Positions 8,254 through 21,190 of a DNA stretch of 21,190 bases are shown in pieces. The notes beneath the pieces are model-generated. The model was not told where the DNA came from. It saw only the letters and a list, made by a program, of their open reading frames with translations, and did no database searches. Positions within the stretch are counted from its first letter, which is position 1; each line of letters starts with the position of its first letter. Where the stretch lies: IMG/VR virus record IMGVR_UViG_3300046471_000133, positions 1-21,190 of that record. The stretch is one strand, 5' to 3'. Made by a program: the position numbers and the translations under genes. The stretch is from a virus.

Positions 8254-8743
8254 CTTGCGGCGCTGGCTTACCGCCTGCGTGCCCGAATTCAAGACGCACC
8301 CCGACCGCCTGCAGATCTACCTCGAAAGCGGCCAGGTGTCCGCGCGCCAGTCCCGCACGCTTTCGTTCGTCTACCAGTACACCCTCAAGGCGCTGGTTAT
8401 GGATTTTGCGGCTGATGCCGACACCCTCATGATCCCTTTGCTAGCGTGGATCGAGAAGGAACAGCCCCAGCTGCTCCGCCGGGCCGACAGCCAGCCATTC
8501 GCTTTCGAAGCCGAACTGCTCGACAGCGAAACCTCCGACATCGAAATCTCGATCGACCTGACCGAAGCTGTCATAGTGAGCCCGCGCGCCGATGGCAGCG
8601 GATACGACACCGCTCATCCGCCCGAGCCCGACTTCACCGATCAATTCGCCGGCGTCACCGCCACCTTCCGGCAAGGATTCGGGGAAGCCGAACAGTTGCT
8701 TGAAAGCGAGCGTCCCGATCTGGCGACGCCGCCAACCGTATGA
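8237..8743 (+). CDS. R: Tail completion protein, P2 gpR family
   Basis: Needed for completing the tail so it can join the head. The 168-residue protein starts MRKADSLRRWLTACVPEFKTHPDRLQIY, parallel to MLKPDSLRRALTDAVTVLKTNPDMLRIF of P2 gpR, and has the YTLKALVMDFAADADTLMIPLLAWI segment equivalent to the YTLNVIVTDF...VPVLAWL region. Length is close to P2 R (155). GAGGAA at 8226-8231 precedes the ATG. It ends in an ATGA overlap with S. Confidence 0.94.
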   Translation: MRKADSLRRWLTACVPEFKTHPDRLQIYLESGQVSARQSRTLSFVYQYTLKALVMDFAADADTLMIPLLAWIEKEQPQLLRRADSQPFAFEAELLDSETSDIEISIDLTEAVIVSPRADGSGYDTAHPPEPDFTDQFAGVTATFRQGFGEAEQLLESERPDLATPPTV

Positions 8744-9414
8744 GCGACGATCTTGCCGAAGTGGAGCGGATAGCCGGCGCCCTGCTGCGCGGCGTGTCAC
8801 CGGCGCAGCGCAAAAATCTGATGCGCAAGATGGCGCGCGACCTAGTGATCAGCCAGCGCCAGCGCATCATCGCGCAGCGCCAACCAGACGGCTCGCCATT
8901 CGCGGCGCGAAAACCCAAGTCACAGCCGATCACGGGCCGTGGTACCGCCTGCTTCCTTTACCCCTCCGGCGGCGGTGAGCCCCGCCGGGTGATCATGAAA
9001 AGCTTCACTTGGGGCGCCGGCCGCATGATGACCGGCTTCGACATTGAGGCGGGCGCGATTCGGTCGTTCGACTTCGACAAGATCGTCAGATGGCTTCCCG
9101 TGCCCGAAGAGTATCGCAACGCCAGCGGCAGTCGCCTGCGCCGGCGGGGCGGTCTACGCCGTCGCGCGATGTTCCGACGCCTGGCAACGTCGCGCTTCCT
9201 GAAGACCGGGACGGACGATCAGGGCTTCTGGGTCGGCTTCAGCGGTAAGGTTTCGCAGATCGCCGACGTTCACCAGCGCGGCCTTCGCGACAGGCCTTCG
9301 CTGCGAGCGAAAGCAGTCGCATATCCGAAGCGTGAACTCCTTGGCACGACGCCGGCCGACCGGGAGCGCCTTCTCGATCTTCTCTACGACCACCTTGCCA
9401 GTGCGGCAGTTTAG
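8740..9414 (+). CDS. S: Tail completion/virion morphogenesis protein, P2 gpS family, with an internal insertion
   Basis: P2 S-type protein needed with R for finishing tails. The N-terminal part (ARDLVISQRQRIIAQRQPDGSPFAARK, residues 32-58) and C-terminal part (MFRRLATSRFLKTG near 144, VHQRGLRDRPS near 177, YPKRELLG near 195) match P2 gpS. At 224 residues it is about 70 longer than P2 S (150). The extra length lies at about 66-122 and looks like a small beta-rich module (RRVIMKSF, TGFDIEAG, RSFDFDKIVRWLPV). Its TAG overlaps the stop of the minus-strand gene that follows, so the two genes converge tail to tail. Confidence 0.92.
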   Translation: MSDDLAEVERIAGALLRGVSPAQRKNLMRKMARDLVISQRQRIIAQRQPDGSPFAARKPKSQPITGRGTACFLYPSGGGEPRRVIMKSFTWGAGRMMTGFDIEAGAIRSFDFDKIVRWLPVPEEYRNASGSRLRRRGGLRRRAMFRRLATSRFLKTGTDDQGFWVGFSGKVSQIADVHQRGLRDRPSLRAKAVAYPKRELLGTTPADRERLLDLLYDHLASAAV

Positions 9415-9911
9415 CGGCGCCCAGCCTTGATCTCCTCCATGTGATCAAGCGTTTCCTCGACGGCTAAGACGGCTCGGATTTTGGCATCGTCCAAATTGCC
9501 TCGCCAGTGCGGCATAGCAGGACTGTAGCCCTTCGCTCCCCCTCCCACATACTGTGCATGGATCATCCATCGCCCACGGTTCTGAGGTATCAGCGCCAAC
9601 GCGACGTCTTGGATCGTCGCAGTCAGGCCTCCGTCGTTCCCGTAGGGCTTCCATTCGGTTGACTGAACCAAGCGCAGAGCGCGCGATCTTTCTCGGCCAA
9701 GGAGTGTCACGATTGCCTGCATCTCGCCGGAAACCCGCGCTTCGCCGTTCACCATTCGCTGGATGCTCCGCAAGATAGTCTTAAACTCACGCCGATCGCC
9801 TAATGTCGAAAGCGTATCAGCCAAACTGGACTGATTTAGCGTCAAATCCTCGATTGCGGTCCGGAAACTGTCGGCGTCGGCCATGCCTGTGGCGATCGTA
9901 TCCTCTTCCAT
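9411..9911 (-). CDS. Putative HTH DNA-binding protein, minus-strand moron between S and J
   Basis: This 166-residue protein is not in a family I can name. Residues 15-72 resemble an XRE-type helix-turn-helix: SFRTAIEDL, then NQSSLADTLSTLG, then FKTILRSIQRMVNGEARV, then SGEMQAIVTLL, with a longer loop than usual between the second and third helices. Residues 85-166 form an unassigned C-terminal domain. The ATG at 9911 is preferred over the TTG at 9953 because AGGAG (9918-9922) lies 6 bases upstream, while the TTG overlaps the predicted promoter. It points against the late operon, is visibly lower in GC than its neighbours, and has its own promoter with an overlapping dyad: signs of a lysogenically expressed, probably self-regulated accessory gene. 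It occupies the place of P2 orf30, V and W. Confidence 0.65.
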   Translation of the reverse strand: MEEDTIATGMADADSFRTAIEDLTLNQSSLADTLSTLGDRREFKTILRSIQRMVNGEARVSGEMQAIVTLLGRERSRALRLVQSTEWKPYGNDGGLTATIQDVALALIPQNRGRWMIHAQYVGGGAKGYSPAMPHWRGNLDDAKIRAVLAVEETLDHMEEIKAGRR

Positions 9912-9922
9912 TGAATTCTCCT

Positions 9923-9961
9923 GCGACGTTTCATCGTAATTTATATACGACAAAACGTCGT
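9923..9961. promoter_or_regulatory. Operator-like imperfect inverted repeat spanning the -10 of the minus-strand HTH gene
   Basis: Two 16-base arms, 9923-9938 and 9946-9961, are reverse complements at 13 of 16 positions and flank the 7-base AT-rich ATTTATA. The arm at 9946-9961 is itself a smaller dyad (ACGAC-N5-GTCGT). The predicted -10 lies inside the repeat, so a bound dimer would block RNA polymerase. Binding by the HTH protein encoded just downstream is inferred from position and symmetry. Confidence 0.6.
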
Positions 9962-9970
9962 TATTAGCAA
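9942..9970 (-). promoter_or_regulatory. Sigma70-like promoter for the minus-strand HTH gene
   Basis: Read on the minus strand: TTGCTA (-35, 9965-9970), a 17-base spacer, then TATATA (-10, 9942-9947). Each hexamer matches the consensus at 4 of 6 positions with ideal spacing, in an AT-rich pocket of otherwise GC-rich DNA. Transcription would start near 9935, leaving a leader of about 25 bases containing AGGAG before the ATG at 9911. Confidence 0.6.
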
Positions 9971-10004
9971 CATCTCATCCGACCTCGTCGAAGGCTTCAA
10001 AGTG

Positions 10005-10034
10005 GGTATTTGGCTAGGCGGCTGACCAAATGCC
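10005..10034. promoter_or_regulatory. Inverted repeat ATTTGG-N12-CCAAAT upstream of J, second copy of the candidate late-activator site
   Basis: ATTTGG (10008-10013) and CCAAAT (10026-10031) are perfect arms separated by 12 bases; the symmetry extends to 9-base arms with one mismatch (10005-10013 and 10026-10034). The centre is 57-58 bases before the J start, nearly the same distance as the first copy has to the P start. The spacer differs from that of the first copy and is not palindromic. In P2 a late promoter (PV) lies upstream of the V-W-J-I block; here it would serve J and the fibre genes. Function is inferred. Confidence 0.6.
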
Positions 10035-10076
10035 GGGGCATGGTGCTTGCCCCTACGCTTCCGCGAGATGGCCGGC

Positions 10077-10982
10077 ATGGCCGACCCTACCTTCACCGCA
10101 GTTGATCTCTCGCGTTTGCCCGCGCCGGACCTCATCGAGGTGCTGGACTATGAGACGATCCTTGCCGACGCGGTAGCGCACTTCAAAGCCGAAATGGCGG
10201 CGAGTGGCATCGCGTTCGTCAATCGCGACAGCGACCCGGCGACCAAGCTAATGCAGACGTTCTCCTATCTCGCCCAACTGCTGCGCCAGCGCGTGAACGA
10301 CGCGGCCCGCGCAGTGATGCCGGCCTATGCACAGAAGGGCGACCTCGACAACATCGCGGCCCTGTTCGGCATCGTGCGCAAGACCATCACGCCCGCCGAC
10401 GATACGCTCGGCACCGAGGCTGTTATGGAAAGCGACACCGAGTTCCGCCGGCGTATGGTGCTTGCGCCAGAAGGGTATTCAGTCGCTGGCCCGGAAGGCG
10501 CCTACCTTTTCCATGCCCTCTCCGCTGACGCCGAGGTGCTCGATGCGACGGCCACCAGCCCGTCGCCTGGCGTCGTCGTGGTCTCACTGCTCTCGCGCGT
10601 GGGCAGCGGCGCCGCCCCGCAGGCGCTCGTCGACATCGTGCAGGCCTACGTCTCAGCCGACACGCGGCGCCCACTGACGGACCTCGTCACGGTGCAATCG
10701 GCCGAGATCGTGCCCTACGCCGTCGATTATGATCTCACCACATTCAACGGCCCCGATGGCACCCTCGTCCTCGCATCCTCGCTGACGAGCGTTCAGGCCT
10801 ACTGCGACGAAAGCCACCGCATCGGGCGCGACATTACCATGTCCGGGCTGTTCCACGCCGCCCACGTCGAGGGTGCCCAGAACGTCCACTTCAATTCGCC
10901 CACGGCCGACATCCCGATCAGCCGCACGCAAGCGCCGTTCTGCACCAGCGTCGCGGGTCGTTTTGCGGGCACGAACGAGTGA
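10077..10982 (+). CDS. J: Baseplate assembly protein, P2 gpJ family
   Basis: Baseplate wedge component. The product (301 residues; P2 J is 302) has LSRLPAPDLIEVLDYETILAD at the start, RQRVNDAARAVM near 77, TPADDTLGTEAVMESDTEFRRRM in the middle, SVAGPEGAYLFHALSADAEV, SPSPGVVVVSLLSR, and a C-terminal AAHVEGAQNV and SRTQAPFCTS, all parallel to P2 gpJ. The ATG at 10077 is preferred (in-frame ATGs also at 10047 and 10068) because a GAGA lies 9 bases upstream and it gives the family N-terminus; the Shine-Dalgarno is weak. It overlaps I by GTGA. V and W, which precede J in P2, are absent here. Confidence 0.93.
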   Translation: MADPTFTAVDLSRLPAPDLIEVLDYETILADAVAHFKAEMAASGIAFVNRDSDPATKLMQTFSYLAQLLRQRVNDAARAVMPAYAQKGDLDNIAALFGIVRKTITPADDTLGTEAVMESDTEFRRRMVLAPEGYSVAGPEGAYLFHALSADAEVLDATATSPSPGVVVVSLLSRVGSGAAPQALVDIVQAYVSADTRRPLTDLVTVQSAEIVPYAVDYDLTTFNGPDGTLVLASSLTSVQAYCDESHRIGRDITMSGLFHAAHVEGAQNVHFNSPTADIPISRTQAPFCTSVAGRFAGTNE

Positions 10983-12663: not shown

Positions 12664-15600
12664 ATGGCCAAGCTAAGCTCCAAGGCCGGCATCGCCGAAC
12701 TTCTCGATTTCGACGGCCGCACCGTCGCCGACGTGCTGCGGCAGGTGATCCTGTTTGGCACGGTATCCGAGCGCGAGGCCTTCACCTATCGCCACGGCGG
12801 CACGCCCGATGTGCGTTCTGGTACTCTGTGGGGACGCAAGGATCCCGGCGAGCTTCCGCGCTGGGATATCTGGCTCAACGCCGGCGACATCGGCCTTGAC
12901 GGCACGGCCGTCACGGAGAGCAAGTGGTATTCGTTCTTCTCGCAGTCCGAGGCGACCAATCGCGGCAACCACAGCGGCACGCAGGGGATCAACACGATCG
13001 TTGGTCTGCAAGGTGCGCTCGACACCCTCTACAGCAATATCACCTCGCGCTTTTCGGGCCCGTTCGGCGATCGTCCGTTCCCCGCACCTCGCGATGGCTA
13101 CCGCTACTACGCCTCTGATCTTGGCCGCGAGTTCCAGTGGATCGAGGTTGGCAGCAAGGACCTTTACGGCAATGTAGCCACGGCCGCCGGGTACGTTGGC
13201 CTCTACACCCTGGCCGAGATCAAAAACCTCGCGATCGGGTTTACGAACTTCCTGCCCCAGGCAAGGGTGGATGGCCTCGCCACGGACTTCGCCCGCTACG
13301 ATGGGCAGACCTTGAATGCCCGCATCTCGGGCTTTCGTGCCCGCGCGCTGTCCAGCGCCAGCACGGTCACAGCGCTGGTCGAATGGGAGGGCCATGCCGA
13401 CAAATTCACCCTGACGTGGGCCGGCTACAGCTTGCCCCTCGGCGGGCAGGTGCGTGGACTTAACACCAAGGCAATGAACTGGGGGAGCCAGACGGCGATG
13501 CTCGGGACCTCCGATTCCATGTTGGACGGCAAGTGGCTGGAGGCCGCTGCCGCCACGCTTGGCTACACGCTGGTCAATGTCGCGAAATACAGCAGCGGCT
13601 CGAAGCAGGTCTATCGCCTGGGGGTGCGCCCGCTGCGCTTCACCACGGCCGGCAACACGATCCCCGCCGGCGGAACCGGTGTGCAGATCACCGCGATCAA
13701 CGGCGTTGCCCCCGGCCCGGCCGTATCCTTCGACGCCTTTGCCGCTGAAGGCTTCCTCAACACGTCTGCTGGCGACACGATCGCCACGCACTGCAGCGAG
13801 GCGGGTTGGCTTGGCGGGCGACATGGCATCGTCTCGGTGCCCAACGCCGGCACGCCGGCCTATACCTTCACGCCGGACGACGGCGGCGCTGCCACGGCCC
13901 TCGATCCCCAGTCGCTTTTCGTCCCCGACAACCTCGCTCTGCTGCAGACTTCGGAGGTGGTCATTCGCAGTACGCAGAACACCTTCTTCGCGGGGCCGGG
14001 CAACCCCGTGTTTCCGAACGACATCAACCCGCGCGTGCTGGAAGATATCGGGCTTATCGTCGACGCCACAGCCGGGCAGCGCGTGACGATCCTCTCGCTC
14101 ACGCCTGGCCGCGACTTCGCGCCCGGTTCTGCCATCCGCAACGCGCTCACCTACTTCAACGCCCAGCTTCGCGCCCTGTGGCCGCAGCAGGCGGCGTTCA
14201 TCAACGGCGTCGGTACGAACTACGATTACATCCGCGCTCACGGGTCGGACGGGTCTGCCGAGGACATAGCCGACATCGCGAACGGCTTGCTGCCGCGCAG
14301 CTGCATGGCGTCCAGCGATCCGACCGAGGTGCATCTGAACGTAAAGGGTCAGGGGTTGGAACGCGATTTCTTCCTGCTGTGGCGGGCCTCCCAGAAGGCT
14401 CCGCCTGCGGTGCGCCTCGGCACCATTTTCCAGATCGACGCGACCGCGAAAAATCTGCGAACCGGCCTCGACACCACGGCGACCGCGACAGCAACGGTCA
14501 TGGGGCCCGCGATTGAGTACGCCGCTGCCGCCCAAGGAATGCGGGGCGAGCCGTTCGAAACGTTGGACGCAGCACAGTTTACGGCGATCCTCCCCACTGG
14601 CGGCGGCGTTCCTTTGGTGGATGCCAACGGCCAAGTCATCGGCGTTGTGCCGCGCAAGCCGGTGGATCAGGCTCAAGTCGAAGCCCTCGTCGGCGACAAA
14701 ATTTCCGCCGATGTATTCGAGTTCATCGTTGACCCGCTTGCGACCACCCCTCTGCCTTTGCTGGTCGATCAAGAGGGGCGCAACGTGCTGCCCCGAACCG
14801 ATGCGGCAGTGACGGCAAGGCTGGCGTCGAATGAGGCGAACGTTTCGGCCCTGACCGAACTTGTGGGCAAGGGCCCTGTGCGAACTGAAGTGTTCGAGCA
14901 GATCATCGTGCCCGGCACGGGCCAACGCTCGCCCCTCCTGCTCGATAATTCCGGGCAGGTGGTGCTCTGGTCGGGCGATGACGCAGCGGCGGCCTCGCTG
15001 GCGGTCTCTGTTGCCGCGCTGTCGGCCAGGATGGACGTATTCCACGATAGCGGGGGAGCGCCAGACGTTCAGGCCTACCAGGCGTGGAGGCTGCGCAAGG
15101 CGCGCATGAAGCTGCGGATGATGAACCTCGCCATCGCGAACACCCAGCTTTCGCTGACGTTCTGTGGTGACAGCTATATCGACGATTCACCCAAGTGGTT
15201 CCGCAAGTTCGCCGACATCATGTTCGCGAAATACGGGAGGGCCGCGATCGGGTATGTCGGCTTTGCGACGTCGGTGCAGCTGGTTGGCTGGCGCAATGCG
15301 CTTTCCAGCAACGCCACCGTCGTCGACGGCACTGCGACTTCCCCCGACACGTACTCGATCACCAGTTCGACCTCGGGCCTGCTGGGCGAGTGGTTTGTGT
15401 CCGCGACCGAGCCGCGACCGACCTCGGCGCGGCTTATGTGGAACGGCACGAGCGATGGCGTGATCCGTTACCGCTGGTTCGACACCGATGCGTGGAAGAC
15501 GCTCAATGTCCAGGGTAGCGGCGTCCAGTCGGCATTGATGGATCTGGCGGGCATGCCGGCGCTCAATACCCAAATCCGCCTGCGCATCGAAGTCGTGTCC

Positions 15601-16131
15601 GGCAGCGTCGAGTTGTACGGCGTCTACTACGCGAACTCGGCCGGCGCCGGTATCATCATCAACAAGTGCGGCAACAGCGGCACGCGTGCGTCGGGTTGGG
15701 CTGCAGTGGACCAGGCGCAGCAAGTGGCCGCTCTGGCGATGATCCCGACGGATACGCATTGCTTCCTGCTCGGCACAAACGACAATTCCGACAGTCGAAG
15801 CGATGTGCAGTTCGCTGCGGACATGGTCACGTTGTTCGCTCGCGCGCGGCTCGCAAACCCGCCCGCCAATCAGGTACCCGGCTGCGATCTCCTGATGATC
15901 CTGCCGGAAGACATTGTCCCCCATTACGCCACCAAGCCAGTGGGCCGCTACACCAGGGCGATGCGCGCGCTCGCACCGTCGATCGACTGCGCCGTGGTCT
16001 CCATGGGCTATTCGTTTGGCCCTGACCCGACCGTGTACCGCGCCTGGCTCGATGACAGCGGGTTTCACCCTCATCAGGACACCGGGGCCTACCTCGCCGC
16101 CGATCCCATCCTTCAACTCTTCTCTGCCTAA
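12664..16131 (+). CDS. Large tail fibre/tailspike with two SGNH-hydrolase-like domains
   Basis: The 1155-residue protein has an N-terminal fibre part with a NRGNHSGTQ motif (99-107; the NRxNHTGTQ fibre signature). A first SGNH-like domain (about 265-580) has block I-like LGTSDSM (280-286), a STQN segment (436-439) and a C-terminal DPTEVHLN (552-559). A linker (about 640-790) contains repeats of PLLVD..G..VL. A second, more canonical SGNH domain (about 815-1155) has GDS at 835-837, Gly1006 (GNSGTR), GTND at 1037-1040 and DSGFHP (1131-1136). SGNH enzymes are often esterases; on a phage fibre the likely role is deacetylating capsule or O-antigen sugars during adsorption (inference). It lies 3 bases after the short fibre gene, with a weak AGGGA upstream. 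Confidence 0.85.
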   Translation: MAKLSSKAGIAELLDFDGRTVADVLRQVILFGTVSEREAFTYRHGGTPDVRSGTLWGRKDPGELPRWDIWLNAGDIGLDGTAVTESKWYSFFSQSEATNRGNHSGTQGINTIVGLQGALDTLYSNITSRFSGPFGDRPFPAPRDGYRYYASDLGREFQWIEVGSKDLYGNVATAAGYVGLYTLAEIKNLAIGFTNFLPQARVDGLATDFARYDGQTLNARISGFRARALSSASTVTALVEWEGHADKFTLTWAGYSLPLGGQVRGLNTKAMNWGSQTAMLGTSDSMLDGKWLEAAAATLGYTLVNVAKYSSGSKQVYRLGVRPLRFTTAGNTIPAGGTGVQITAINGVAPGPAVSFDAFAAEGFLNTSAGDTIATHCSEAGWLGGRHGIVSVPNAGTPAYTFTPDDGGAATALDPQSLFVPDNLALLQTSEVVIRSTQNTFFAGPGNPVFPNDINPRVLEDIGLIVDATAGQRVTILSLTPGRDFAPGSAIRNALTYFNAQLRALWPQQAAFINGVGTNYDYIRAHGSDGSAEDIADIANGLLPRSCMASSDPTEVHLNVKGQGLERDFFLLWRASQKAPPAVRLGTIFQIDATAKNLRTGLDTTATATATVMGPAIEYAAAAQGMRGEPFETLDAAQFTAILPTGGGVPLVDANGQVIGVVPRKPVDQAQVEALVGDKISADVFEFIVDPLATTPLPLLVDQEGRNVLPRTDAAVTARLASNEANVSALTELVGKGPVRTEVFEQIIVPGTGQRSPLLLDNSGQVVLWSGDDAAAASLAVSVAALSARMDVFHDSGGAPDVQAYQAWRLRKARMKLRMMNLAIANTQLSLTFCGDSYIDDSPKWFRKFADIMFAKYGRAAIGYVGFATSVQLVGWRNALSSNATVVDGTATSPDTYSITSSTSGLLGEWFVSATEPRPTSARLMWNGTSDGVIRYRWFDTDAWKTLNVQGSGVQSALMDLAGMPALNTQIRLRIEVVSGSVELYGVYYANSAGAGIIINKCGNSGTRASGWAAVDQAQQVAALAMIPTDTHCFLLGTNDNSDSRSDVQFAADMVTLFARARLANPPANQVPGCDLLMILPEDIVPHYATKPVGRYTRAMRALAPSIDCAVVSMGYSFGPDPTVYRAWLDDSGFHPHQDTGAYLAADPILQLFSA

Positions 16132-17204: not shown

Positions 17205-17480
17205 ATGACAATGACCGAAACTTGCCTTGCCATCCTCCTCGTCCATGGCGCGGGCGCGGCGGATCACGCCGACACTCTGCTGGAACACTACGGGGCGACC
17301 CGCGCGATCACTGACGTCGCGGACGCTCAAAACGGCGACCTGTTGTTGCGCGAAGACGACGTCGAAGATCTGGATTGGATCGCCTCGAATGTGATCATGC
17401 TGTCCGGCAACCGGGCACCCATCGTGCGCAAGATCGCGCTGGAAGATGCGCTGGAGGATATTTCGGCCTCGGCAGCCTAA
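17205..17480 (+). CDS. Hypothetical protein downstream of the tail fibre genes
   Basis: Small acidic protein of 91 residues (MTMTETCLAILLVHGAGAADH...) that I do not recognise. It has a mixed helical pattern, an acidic middle (LLREDDVEDLDW) and an acidic C-terminus (EDALEDI). The ATG at 17205 (or 17211) is preferred to the in-frame ATG at 17166, whose first residues look like untranslated leader; the Shine-Dalgarno is weak either way. It sits where P2 has the fibre-assembly chaperone G but shows no visible resemblance to G. Two strong hairpins follow. Confidence 0.5.
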   Translation: MTMTETCLAILLVHGAGAADHADTLLEHYGATRAITDVADAQNGDLLLREDDVEDLDWIASNVIMLSGNRAPIVRKIALEDALEDISASAA

Positions 17481-17508
17481 CCCGGCGGCATCTTCACGCC
17501 GCAGCAAT

Positions 17509-17526
17509 CCCCTTCTACGGAAGGGG
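17509..17526 (+). terminator. Hairpin CCCCTTC-TACG-GAAGGGG after the fibre gene cluster
   Basis: A perfect 7-bp stem (17509-17515 with 17520-17526) closed by a TACG tetraloop, of the especially stable cUNCGg class. No T-run follows, so it may be a weak or Rho-assisted terminator or a processing/stability structure rather than a classical intrinsic terminator. Confidence 0.45.
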
Positions 17527-17605
17527 GTTCCGGATGTCCCCACATCCCGAAACCAGCGAGCCTGCACTCGCACTCTGACGGGCATTGCGCCTGTCCCATC
17601 GAGTA

Positions 17606-17631
17606 CCCTTCCGCGCTTAGGCGCGGGAGGG
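17606..17631 (+). terminator. Strong hairpin 22 bases upstream of dam
   Basis: An 11-bp stem (17606-17616 with 17621-17631, one G-T wobble) with a TTAG loop. No T-run follows. It sits in the dam leader, so it either ends transcripts arriving from the fibre genes or folds at the 5' end of the dam mRNA. Apart from this hairpin and the one at 17509-17526, nothing was recognised between 17481 and 17652. Confidence 0.45.
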
Positions 17632-17652
17632 CCATCCTGCAGGAAATCCTAC

Positions 17653-18471
17653 ATGTCTACCCCTTTTGTTCTCGTTTCCCCCACCGCTCCTGTCGCCGGC
17701 TACATCGGCGGAAAACGCAACCTTTCCAAGCGTGTCTGCGCGATCATCCAGCGCACCCCGCACACCAGCTATGCGGAGCCTTTCGTGGGCATGGGCGGTA
17801 TCTTTCTGCGCCGCAAAAGCCGTCCGCGCGCCGAGGCCATCAACGATATCTCGGGCGATGTCGTCGGGCTCTTCCGCTGCCTTGCGGAACACTATCCATA
17901 CCTGGTCGACATGCTGCGCTTTCGGGTCACGAGCCGTGCCGAGTTCGAGCGCCTGCTTGCGCAAGATCCCGAGCGGCTGACCGACCTGCAGCGCGCTGTA
18001 CGATTCCTTTACGTCCAGCGCCTGGCGTTCGGCGGGAAGGTATCGGGACGTTCCTTCGGCGTGGACGCCTCGTCGCCGGCGCGCTTCGATGTCAGCAAGA
18101 TCGAGCCCATGCTGGCAGACATCCACGATCGCCTGCAGTCCGTCGTGATCGAGCGCCTGCCTTATGCGGACTTCATCCGCCGATACGATCGCGAGGGCGC
18201 GTTGTTCTACCTCGATCCGCCGTATTGGGCCTGCGAGACGGACTATGGCCCGGGCGTTTTCACGCGCGCCGACTTCGCCGCACTGGCTCAGCAGCTGGCC
18301 GGCATCAAGGGCAAGTTCGTCATGTCCCTTAACGATAACCAGGGGGTGCGTGAGATATTTGCACGCTTCAGTATTGCTTCGATCGGCACCACCTACACGG
18401 TGGGAGCGAAGAGTAGACCAGCGCGAGAATTACTGATCAGCAATTTCGCATTGCCAGACAACGACAACTGA
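17653..18471 (+). CDS. dam: DNA adenine N6-methyltransferase, Dam/D12 class
   Basis: Transfers a methyl group from SAM to adenine N6 in a specific DNA sequence. The 272-residue protein (E. coli Dam is 278) has the N-terminal YIGGKRNL (17-24), motif I AEPFVGMGGIF (41-51) for SAM binding, a NDIS turn at 64-67, and the catalytic motif IV DPPY at 188-191 within FYLDPPYW. The order of motifs is that of D12-class (alpha) enzymes; GATC is the common target but cannot be read from sequence. AGGA at 17641-17644 lies 8 bases before the ATG. The frame is open upstream to 17446 without family residues. As a phage cargo gene it could protect phage DNA from host restriction or alter gene control. Confidence 0.92.
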   Translation: MSTPFVLVSPTAPVAGYIGGKRNLSKRVCAIIQRTPHTSYAEPFVGMGGIFLRRKSRPRAEAINDISGDVVGLFRCLAEHYPYLVDMLRFRVTSRAEFERLLAQDPERLTDLQRAVRFLYVQRLAFGGKVSGRSFGVDASSPARFDVSKIEPMLADIHDRLQSVVIERLPYADFIRRYDREGALFYLDPPYWACETDYGPGVFTRADFAALAQQLAGIKGKFVMSLNDNQGVREIFARFSIASIGTTYTVGAKSRPARELLISNFALPDNDN

Positions 18472-19163: not shown

Positions 19164-19195
19164 ACCTGTTCGGTTGAGTGATGTGGTGTGAAGGA

Positions 19196-19223
19196 TGTGT
19201 CCACCAAGGAAGAGGTGGACACA
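19196..19223 (+). promoter_or_regulatory. Perfect 10-bp hairpin presenting the tnpA ribosome-binding site
   Basis: TGTGTCCACC (19196-19205) and GGTGGACACA (19214-19223) are exact reverse complements around an 8-base loop AAGGAAGA that contains the Shine-Dalgarno. The last stem base is the A of the tnpA start codon. The structure could limit transposase translation, for example on transcripts reading in from outside the element. Confidence 0.6.
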
Positions 19224-19675
19224 TGGAGATGGCACCAATGGGCCCCTATGGGCTCGAGGTTGTAAAGGTGACGAGTAACGGCCGGCGCTATTATGGTCGG
19301 GCGGGGAAGGCACGGTTGGTCGAGGCGTGCCTCGAGCCGGGCATATCGGTGGCGAGGCTTGCGCTGGAGCACGGTGTCAACGCCAACCAACTGCGCAAAT
19401 GGGTCAGCAAGTATCAAGAGCGCCAGAGTGCGAACGGGCAGCGGAGCACGGGGCAGTTGCTGGATCCGTCGGCGTTTATCCGGGTGGAGACGTCTCCGGC
19501 GCCTGCGGAGCGACACACTGGTGGGATCGCGATCCGGTCTGCGGGATTGGTACCGTCAGCGCGGCTGCAGGCGTCGATGCCAAATGGCGTATCGCTGACG
19601 CTGGAGGGGTGTGACGCGCAGTTGCTGGTGGTGATGATCGATGCGCTGGGGCACTGCAATGTTCCGGCTCGCTGA
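19223..19675 (+). CDS. tnpA: IS66 accessory protein TnpA
   Basis: Small HTH protein (150 residues) needed for IS66 transposition along with TnpB and TnpC. Residues 27-62 (AGKARLVEACLEPGISVARLALEHGVNANQLRKWVSK) are the Tn3/IS3-OrfA-like helix-turn-helix typical of IS66 OrfA. The C-terminal part ends in VSLTLEGCDAQLLVVMIDAL, like other IS66 TnpA proteins. The ATG at 19223 follows AAGGAAGAGG; in-frame GTG (19178) and ATG (19181) starts upstream would add about 15 residues through the hairpin. It overlaps tnpB by 17 bases. Confidence 0.88.
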   Translation: MEMAPMGPYGLEVVKVTSNGRRYYGRAGKARLVEACLEPGISVARLALEHGVNANQLRKWVSKYQERQSANGQRSTGQLLDPSAFIRVETSPAPAERHTGGIAIRSAGLVPSARLQASMPNGVSLTLEGCDAQLLVVMIDALGHCNVPAR

Positions 19676-20012
19676 AGATCTGCGCGTCTATCTCCACCGG
19701 GATCCGATCGACTTTCGCTGTGGGATCAACAGCCTTGCGATCCTGGTCGAGCAGTCGATGGGCCTCAATCCGTTCGAGCGCGCGGCGTTTGCCTTTTGCA
19801 ACCGGCGCCGGACCCGGATGAAGCTCCTGTTTTTTGATCGCTCAGGCTTTGTATTGGTGCTCAAGGCGCTGACGGAGGACAAGTTCCGATGGCCCCGGCG
19901 GGCGGAAACGGTGGTGGCGCTCACCGCCGAGCAATTGCGATGGTTGCTCGACGGGATCGATATTGACGCGATGGTGCCTCATCCGGTGCGGCAATATCAG
20001 TTTGTCGGCTGA
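19659..20012 (+). CDS. tnpB: IS66 accessory protein TnpB (Orf2-like)
   Basis: IS66 Orf2 family protein of 117 residues, a required helper of transposition with no settled biochemical role. Diagnostic segments are MFRLAEDLRVYLHRDPIDFRCG, GINSLAILVEQSMGLNPF, FCNRRRTRMKLLFFDRSGFVL and KALTEDKFRWP. The ATG at 19659 is chosen over the in-frame ATG at 19641 because it gives the family N-terminus. It overlaps the end of tnpA, suggesting coupled translation. Confidence 0.93.
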   Translation: MFRLAEDLRVYLHRDPIDFRCGINSLAILVEQSMGLNPFERAAFAFCNRRRTRMKLLFFDRSGFVLVLKALTEDKFRWPRRAETVVALTAEQLRWLLDGIDIDAMVPHPVRQYQFVG

Positions 20013-20053
20013 AGGCGGTTGACGCGGGAGGGGGCTTTCGATTCAAGACTGCG

Positions 20054-21190
20054 ATGGATCGAACCGGCGTCCCCACCATTGAAGAATTGATGGCGCTTCT
20101 GGCGACGAAAGCCGCCGAGGTCGCGACATTGGAGGCCGAGAGAGACGCTCTTGCCCGGCGCATCCTGAAGCTTGAGGAAGAACTGGCGCTGGCGCGGTTG
20201 CACCGCTTTGCGCCGCGCAGCGAAAAGCGCCTGGATCGTGTCTTCAATGAAGCCGAGCAGGCCGCCCTTGAGGACGATACCGACGAAGGACATGACGATG
20301 TCGACGGGCCGGACACCGCCGATCTTCCCGACACGGGATTGTCGGAGGCGAAAAAGCCAGAAGGGAAGAAGCGCGGGCGCAAGGCACTTCCTGCCGACCT
20401 GCCGCGCCAGCGCGTCGAATATGACCTCGCCGACGACCAGAAGGTCTGCCCGTGCTGCAGCGAACGGCTGCATCGCATGGGGGAAGTGGTAACCGAGCAG
20501 CTTCACATCGAGGTGAAGGCAACGGTCCTTCAGAATGCCCGCGCCAAATATGCATGCCGCAATTGTGACCGCACCGGGATCGCCACGCCGATCGTCCTTG
20601 CGCCGATGCCCGCCCAGCCTTTGCCGGGCAGCATTGCCACGGCCTCGACGCTGGCCTTTGCCCTTGTCCACAAATACGTGGATGGCACGCCGCTCTATCG
20701 TCTGGCGCAAACCTTCGAGCGCGCAGGGGTACCTGTCAGCCGTGGTGCTCTGGGCCATTGGGTGATCGCCTCGAGCGAGAGGCACCTGCATCGCATCTTT
20801 GATACCCTGAAGCTGCGGCTCCAGTCTCAGGAGATCATTCATGGCGACGAGACGACGGTTCAGGTCCTGAAGGAAGAGGGCAAGGCTCCTACCAGCACTT
20901 CGTATATGTGGGCCTACCGCAGCAGCGAGAACAGCGAACAGCCGATCGTGCTGCTCGATTATCAACCGGGCCGCGGGCAGGAGCATCCGCAAGCCTTCCT
21001 GGGCGACTATCGCGGTATCCTGATGAGTGACGGCTATACGGCCTGGCGCACATTAAAAGGCGTCACGCATCTGGGATGCATGGCCCACGCCAGACGGCGC
21101 TTTGCCGACGCCCTCAAGGCGAGGAAGAAACAAGGCGGACCGCCCGCACAGGCGCTCAAGTTCTTCGACCAGCTCTATCGGATCGAAAGA
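20054..21190 (+). CDS. tnpC: IS66 transposase TnpC, N-terminal 379 residues (runs off window)
   Basis: DDE transposase of the IS66 family, open from the ATG at 20054 (GGGAGGGGG about 15-25 bases upstream) to the last base. It has an N-terminal coiled coil (about 8-48), an acidic and then basic linker (72-110), a zinc-ribbon (Cys132/Cys135 and Cys168/Cys171), the IS66 helical segment (IATASTLAFALVHKYVDGTPLYRL near 194), and the catalytic core with Asp265 in HGDET and Asp326 in SDGY, followed by GCMAHARRRF at 341. IS66 TnpC is usually about 500 residues or more, so the final catalytic Glu should lie beyond the window. Nothing visible is broken. Confidence 0.93.
   Translation, partial: MDRTGVPTIEELMALLATKAAEVATLEAERDALARRILKLEEELALARLHRFAPRSEKRLDRVFNEAEQAALEDDTDEGHDDVDGPDTADLPDTGLSEAKKPEGKKRGRKALPADLPRQRVEYDLADDQKVCPCCSERLHRMGEVVTEQLHIEVKATVLQNARAKYACRNCDRTGIATPIVLAPMPAQPLPGSIATASTLAFALVHKYVDGTPLYRLAQTFERAGVPVSRGALGHWVIASSERHLHRIFDTLKLRLQSQEIIHGDETTVQVLKEEGKAPTSTSYMWAYRSSENSEQPIVLLDYQPGRGQEHPQAFLGDYRGILMSDGYTAWRTLKGVTHLGCMAHARRRFADALKARKKQGGPPAQALKFFDQLYRIER

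Follow-up and report, generated by a model that had tools for sequence, protein, structure and literature searches.

The S–J Junction and Its Cargo Gene

The window, i.e., the whole 21,190-nucleotide stretch of viral DNA analyzed here, is part of a P2-like prophage and includes the tail completion gene S (8740–9414, plus strand; PF05069, E = 1e-27) and the baseplate gene J (10077–10982, plus strand; PF04865, E = 4e-22), the start codon of J being uncertain within 10047–10077. Between them, on the minus strand, is an open frame for a 166-residue protein (9411–9911, ATG at 9909–9911), the proposed autorepressor, which has homologues of 30–65% identity. The 3′ end of this gene overlaps the end of S by 4 bp. 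Upstream of the ATG lies a large nested dyad (9924–9960), with 15-bp arms and a 7-bp center.

The gene order of the window phage and its relatives is of the Smp131 type, and they are probably phages of Alphaproteobacteria. In Smp131 and in a Zymomonas P2-like element, J directly follows S with a gap of under 100 bp; that is, the slot between them is empty. At the S–J junctions of the window (9411–10077) and of related phage loci L009–L027, the cargo differs; it measures from about 0.26 up to 4.7 kb, and its genes are unrelated and for the most part reversed. L009 carries a cluster of cytosine methylase, Vsr and GHKL ATPase genes; cargo elsewhere is weakly SIR2-like (L017), a ParA-like ATPase (L023), an acyltransferase (L011), or consists of unknown genes. 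Loss of the baseplate genes V and W from between S and J was considered and rejected: V and W of Smp131 come after the fibre genes, as does V of the Zymomonas element, and longer relatives have a gp25-like gene downstream. The 166-residue gene has its own predicted promoter, lies on the opposite strand, and is absent from the same site in relatives, all of which mark a cargo gene; prophage accessory genes usually have a promoter of their own and run antisense (PMC7067206). The first-pass annotation was right to place the gene inside the structural operon of a prophage, and that place is the S–J cargo slot.

A second, short dyad, approximately CATTTGG...CCAAATG, is found at 10006–10034, about 45–70 nt before J. 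It occupies the same place in 14 phage loci whatever the cargo, with weak covariation, and may be a DNA site or a fixed border of the cargo slot. Elsewhere in the window are a gene for a 1,155-residue fibre-region protein with a GDSL-type esterase domain near its C-terminus (12664–16131) and, downstream of the fibre region, a D12-class adenine methyltransferase gene (17446–18471). Near the right end of the record, at about 19178–20765, the translated frames resemble, by eye, an IS66-type insertion sequence.

The Predicted Promoter and Its Two Palindromes

The minus-strand order upstream of the gene is TTGCTA (−35), ATAACGACGTTTTGTCG (17 bp), TATATA (−10), AATTACGATGAAACGTCGC, AGGAG, and the ATG. 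The −35 element TTGCTA (9965–9970, minus strand), recognized by sequence and promoter score, aligns with TTGTAA in the phage relative L002, described below. The −10 region (9940–9947, minus strand) can be read as TATATA at 9942–9947, with a 17-bp spacer, or as TATAAA at 9940–9945, with a 19-bp spacer; within 100 bp upstream of the gene, no other pairing scores as well for a promoter as these two with TTGCTA. AGGAG at 9918–9922 (minus strand) has the sequence of a Shine-Dalgarno element. A strict consensus promoter scan reported no promoter at 9940–9970, and the assignment of this promoter to the 166-residue gene is a good guess rather than a certainty.

Of the 15 positions in the arms of the dyad, 9924–9938 and 9946–9960, 13 pair; between the arms is the 7-bp core ATTTATA (9939–9945). 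Extended to 9923–9961, the arms pair at 13 of 16, matching the 16-base arms and 7-base core first described. The −10 lies in or adjoins the core. When the 165-bp intergenic region was dinucleotide-shuffled 1,000 times, 13/15 was never reached at a gap of 0–12. Across the whole 21-kb window, about one dyad as good is expected by chance, and a few other places reach 13/15; the location of the dyad therefore counts as part of the evidence. By itself the dyad is modest evidence, and its position at the promoter and the relatives carry the argument.

The first-pass annotation had noticed that one arm is itself a dyad, and this is true of both arms. Operator 1 (proposed), ACGACGTTTTGTCGT on the minus strand at 9947–9961, has exact palindromic half-sites (5/5 pairs), fills the −35/−10 spacer, and is the sole exact copy of its palindrome within the window. 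Operator 2 (proposed), ACGATGAAACGTCGC on the minus strand at 9923–9937, pairs at 3/5 half-site positions and covers the predicted transcription start. The centers of the two are 24 bp apart. Readings as a nested dyad and as two palindromes cover the identical four half-sites. Tandem arrays in relatives favor the palindrome, which is thus taken as the functional unit, and 9923–9961 is better read as two 15-bp palindromes, RYGAC-N5-GTCRY, than as a single 37-bp dyad.

The Sites in a Phage Relative

L002 was the only close relative found in IMG/VR. Its homologue, 65% identical, is also reversed and lies in the same slot between S and J. From the −35 to the ATG, the two promoters align without gaps, with 32 of 59 positions identical, compared with 15.5 +/- 3.3 on shuffling; half-site positions are kept at 15/20 and the remaining promoter positions at 17/39. 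L002 has the palindromes ACGACATTTCAGCGT and ACGTCAATTCGTCGT, the latter being the counterpart of operator 2, at the 24-bp spacing and at no other. Its inner half-sites are degenerate. Inverted repeats upstream of its gene, when scored generically, do not exceed chance (P = 0.70). Scored for the pair of palindromes, L002 reaches 17/20, while the 304,806 places scanned in other loci all score below 16. A pattern fitted jointly to the window and L002 promoters matches only the L002 contig across IMG/VR, in a scan that may leave out the window's own record. Loss of the dyad from relatives in which the gene persists had been named beforehand as a ground for giving up the operator reading; the reading survived this test, with the four half-sites kept in L002.

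The conservation also bears on the idea that the dyad works as RNA and not as DNA, in a hairpin that serves as terminator, attenuator or stability element. On either strand the window dyad gives a good fold (z = −5.8 and −6.3), and a weaker nested hairpin is kept in L002 (z = −3.3 and −2.6). However, the predicted start of the cargo mRNA is inside the dyad, so the gene's own transcript cannot form the hairpin, and no U-run follows the dyad. The L002 stem is about 40–50% weaker while the half-site letters stay, and the tandem arrays described next suit a DNA-binding protein. Given the predicted start inside the dyad and a stem that weakens while half-sites are kept, a hairpin role is very unlikely.

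The Sites on Plasmids and a Chromosome

The search for relatives took in viral contigs and plasmids as well as about 1,180 whole genomes. The protein family is rare: there are five plasmid records, and profiles gave a handful of matches in the ~1,180 genomes. Counterparts of operator 1 are present in L002, L055, L006 and L007. L055 is a contig on which ordinary chromosomal genes flank the gene for a 30% identical protein. Directly before that gene stand three exact palindromes, ACGACAAATTGTCGC, ACGACATAATGTCGT and GTGACATTATGTCGT, at 22-bp steps; this is the sole exact tandem in the 2.8-Mb genome of L055. The Pseudomonas plasmids L006 and L007, at about 30% identity, have the promoter palindromes GTGACATATTGTCAC and GTGACATAATGTCAT, respectively, each with a degenerate second copy 22 bp upstream. 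With two mismatches allowed, neither array recurs on its plasmid. L004, L035 and L003 are without a clear copy of the motif.

The motif form YGAC-N5-GTCR was defined after inspection of the sequences. Exact copies within 100 bp have shuffling P values of 0.0045–0.012 each for the window, L055, L006 and L007. Close relatives are few, and the case for conservation rests on one phage promoter and three distant promoters. The upstream regions show a period of 24 bp in the window and in L002, and one of 22 bp in L055, L006 and L007 (P = 0.002–0.022). Generic inverted-repeat scores upstream of the homologues are significant for some only; the specific motif test, rather than the generic score, is the informative one. 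In the window, L002, L055 and L006, the two elements of the best promoter-like pair lie on either side of a palindrome, and the palindromic sites overlap the gene's own core promoter.

To summarize, the palindrome is kept with the gene across unrelated replicons, i.e., phage, plasmids and a chromosome, and in the replicons searched the array occurs nowhere outside the promoter of the gene itself. The autoregulatory operator first suggested from the window gains support from this comparison, in that palindrome arrays precede the gene in relatives at only about 30% identity.

The 166-Residue Protein and Residue 51

Searches with the 166-residue protein gave nothing meaningful in Pfam, PHROGs, NCBIfam, PADLOC, or PDB sequence or fold searches, the PDB fold search returning no significant match. 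No HTH family was found at E<=5 for the window protein in Pfam, PHROGs or NCBIfam, none was matched by its relatives in the family libraries, and an hhalign profile comparison with two annotated plasmid regulators gave nothing significant. AlphaFold2 places helixes at residues 5–25, 29–37, 40–54 and 62–84 (mean pLDDT 69 and 63). This four-helix N-terminal domain (residues 5–84) is predicted with low confidence; a β4-α C-terminal domain (residues 88–162) is better predicted and likely carries a second function. By eye, residues 26–71 resemble an XRE-type HTH with a short insertion, which is a lead only. The earlier label of an HTH-type gene stands to the extent that an HTH is plausible by eye; family library, PDB and fold searches lend it no support. 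We propose, from the operator evidence, that the protein belongs to the functional class of self-regulating DNA-binding proteins.

A 106-residue relative from Acidocella (L001/L003, 5908–6228) consists of the N-terminal domain alone, so this domain exists by itself. No operator of the RYGAC-N5-GTCRY type is found in the 100 bp upstream of this short relative.

A subgroup of the homologues, L005, L054 and L039 (62–71% mutual identity), is without the RYGAC-N5-GTCRY motif. Upstream of L005 and L054 are TTCC...TGG units with a 12-bp period (lag-12 P = 0.002 each). L005 has a perfect GTTCCACTAGTGGAAC, the 14-bp core of which is single on the plasmid at two mismatches; L039 has only TCCAGATCTGGA upstream, which is not significant. 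In the 100 bp upstream of the L054 and L005 homologues, tandem 12-bp units, TTCCnnnnnTGG, lie over the promoter, up to four of them in L054, and are possibly the operator of the L054/L005 subgroup.

Overall, L055 is closer to L005, L054 and L039 (43–49%) than to the phage proteins (30%). Despite this kinship, L055 resembles the phage proteins in having Q51 and the ACGAC operator. At seven columns L055 sides with the phage proteins and not with L005, L054 and L039; three of the seven, 51, 59 and 62, are in and after the third predicted helix: Q51 versus E/D, R59 versus K, and G62 versus A/P. L006, L007 and L004 have N at position 51, and the half-site of L006 and L007 is GTGAC. From these nine sequences, residue 51 is proposed as a specificity determinant.

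A broader, tentative reading is that these proteins form an undescribed regulator family on mobile elements, with a helical N-terminal and a β4-α C-terminal domain, each acting at its own promoter on a palindrome array with fixed steps of 12, 22 or 24 bp. The half-site would be set largely by residue 51, with Q51 specifying ACGAC, N specifying GTGAC, and E/D specifying a TTCCAC-type half-site, and the C-terminal domain would sense a signal, making a portable switch.

A Model for Autorepression

It is very likely that 9923–9961 is a two-site operator, and that the 166-residue protein represses its own promoter through the pair. Each 15-bp palindrome would bind one protein dimer, presumably through the N-terminal helical domain, with residue 51 helping to set the half-site. 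With operator 1 between the −35 and −10 and operator 2 over the start, the bound protein would exclude RNA polymerase. In the lysogen, expression of the cargo gene would then stay low and self-limited, independent of the surrounding tail operon. Sites in the spacer and on the start are most simply read as sites of repression, and the gene most likely switches itself down. We judge the unit to be a self-contained autorepressor cassette.

The main rival to repression is control of the kind exerted by the C proteins of restriction-modification systems, in which the protein would activate the promoter or act biphasically, one site raising expression and the second shutting it down. In C.Esp1396I, the C-boxes are GAC/GTC, and two dimers occupy OL and OR (PMC3758141). 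The two adjacent GAC...GTC sites of the window resemble such operators in their half-sites around an AT-rich center and in their closeness to the promoter, and the proposed small, self-regulating protein is a further likeness. The binding of two dimers together, a feature of C proteins, is proposed here from sequence. In L055, L006 and L007, one more site is present upstream of the −35, a position suited to an activator; the window and L002, however, are without one, and both of their sites cover core promoter elements. The GAC–GTC spacing is 5, not 4, the sites are in the −35/−10 spacer and on the start, and the 166-residue protein is longer, with an extra C-terminal domain. Restriction or modification genes do not adjoin the gene: its neighbors are S and J in both phages, and none is annotated beside the plasmid copies. 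Activation or biphasic control is accordingly improbable.

It is also most unlikely that the sites bind another regulator, with the cargo gene silenced or induced by a phage repressor or a host factor and the encoded protein a mere target, since the site accompanies the gene on replicons that are unrelated. The DNA-binding fold of the protein is putative and foreign control is possible for phage cargo promoters, but a second regulator common to the Pseudomonas plasmids and the chromosome with the palindrome is unlikely, and differences in operator type go along with differences at residues of the 166-residue protein.

Relation to Known Systems

Autorepression as a principle is well known; this protein family and its operator are without a match in the libraries searched. 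The antitoxins AbiEi and Rv2827c (PMC7319586) and the Xre-RES system of Pseudomonas putida (PMC12204516) offer a parallel in negative autoregulation, proposed here, and in inverted repeats that overlap the promoter. In contrast to these, the present gene is a single-gene unit in the contexts seen, and no sequence similarity was detected. No cotranscribed toxin gene is adjacent: the reversed gene is alone in the S–J slot of both the window and L002. The plasmid copies have different neighbors.

The S–J slot recalls the gpA–gpQ locus of E. coli P2-like phages, a known defence hot spot (PMC9122126), in being a small variable slot between conserved phage genes with some defence-like cargo. Here, the slot is between S and J, and the phages are of the Smp131 type, probably of Alphaproteobacteria.

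Most prophage cargo genes carry the annotation "hypothetical". In the present case, sequence alone was enough to match a DNA site with a protein in phage, plasmid and chromosome. The outcome is a concrete operator and a proposed specificity residue for a family absent from the searched libraries, and the S–J junction of these P2-like phages is marked as a cargo slot with defence-like genes.
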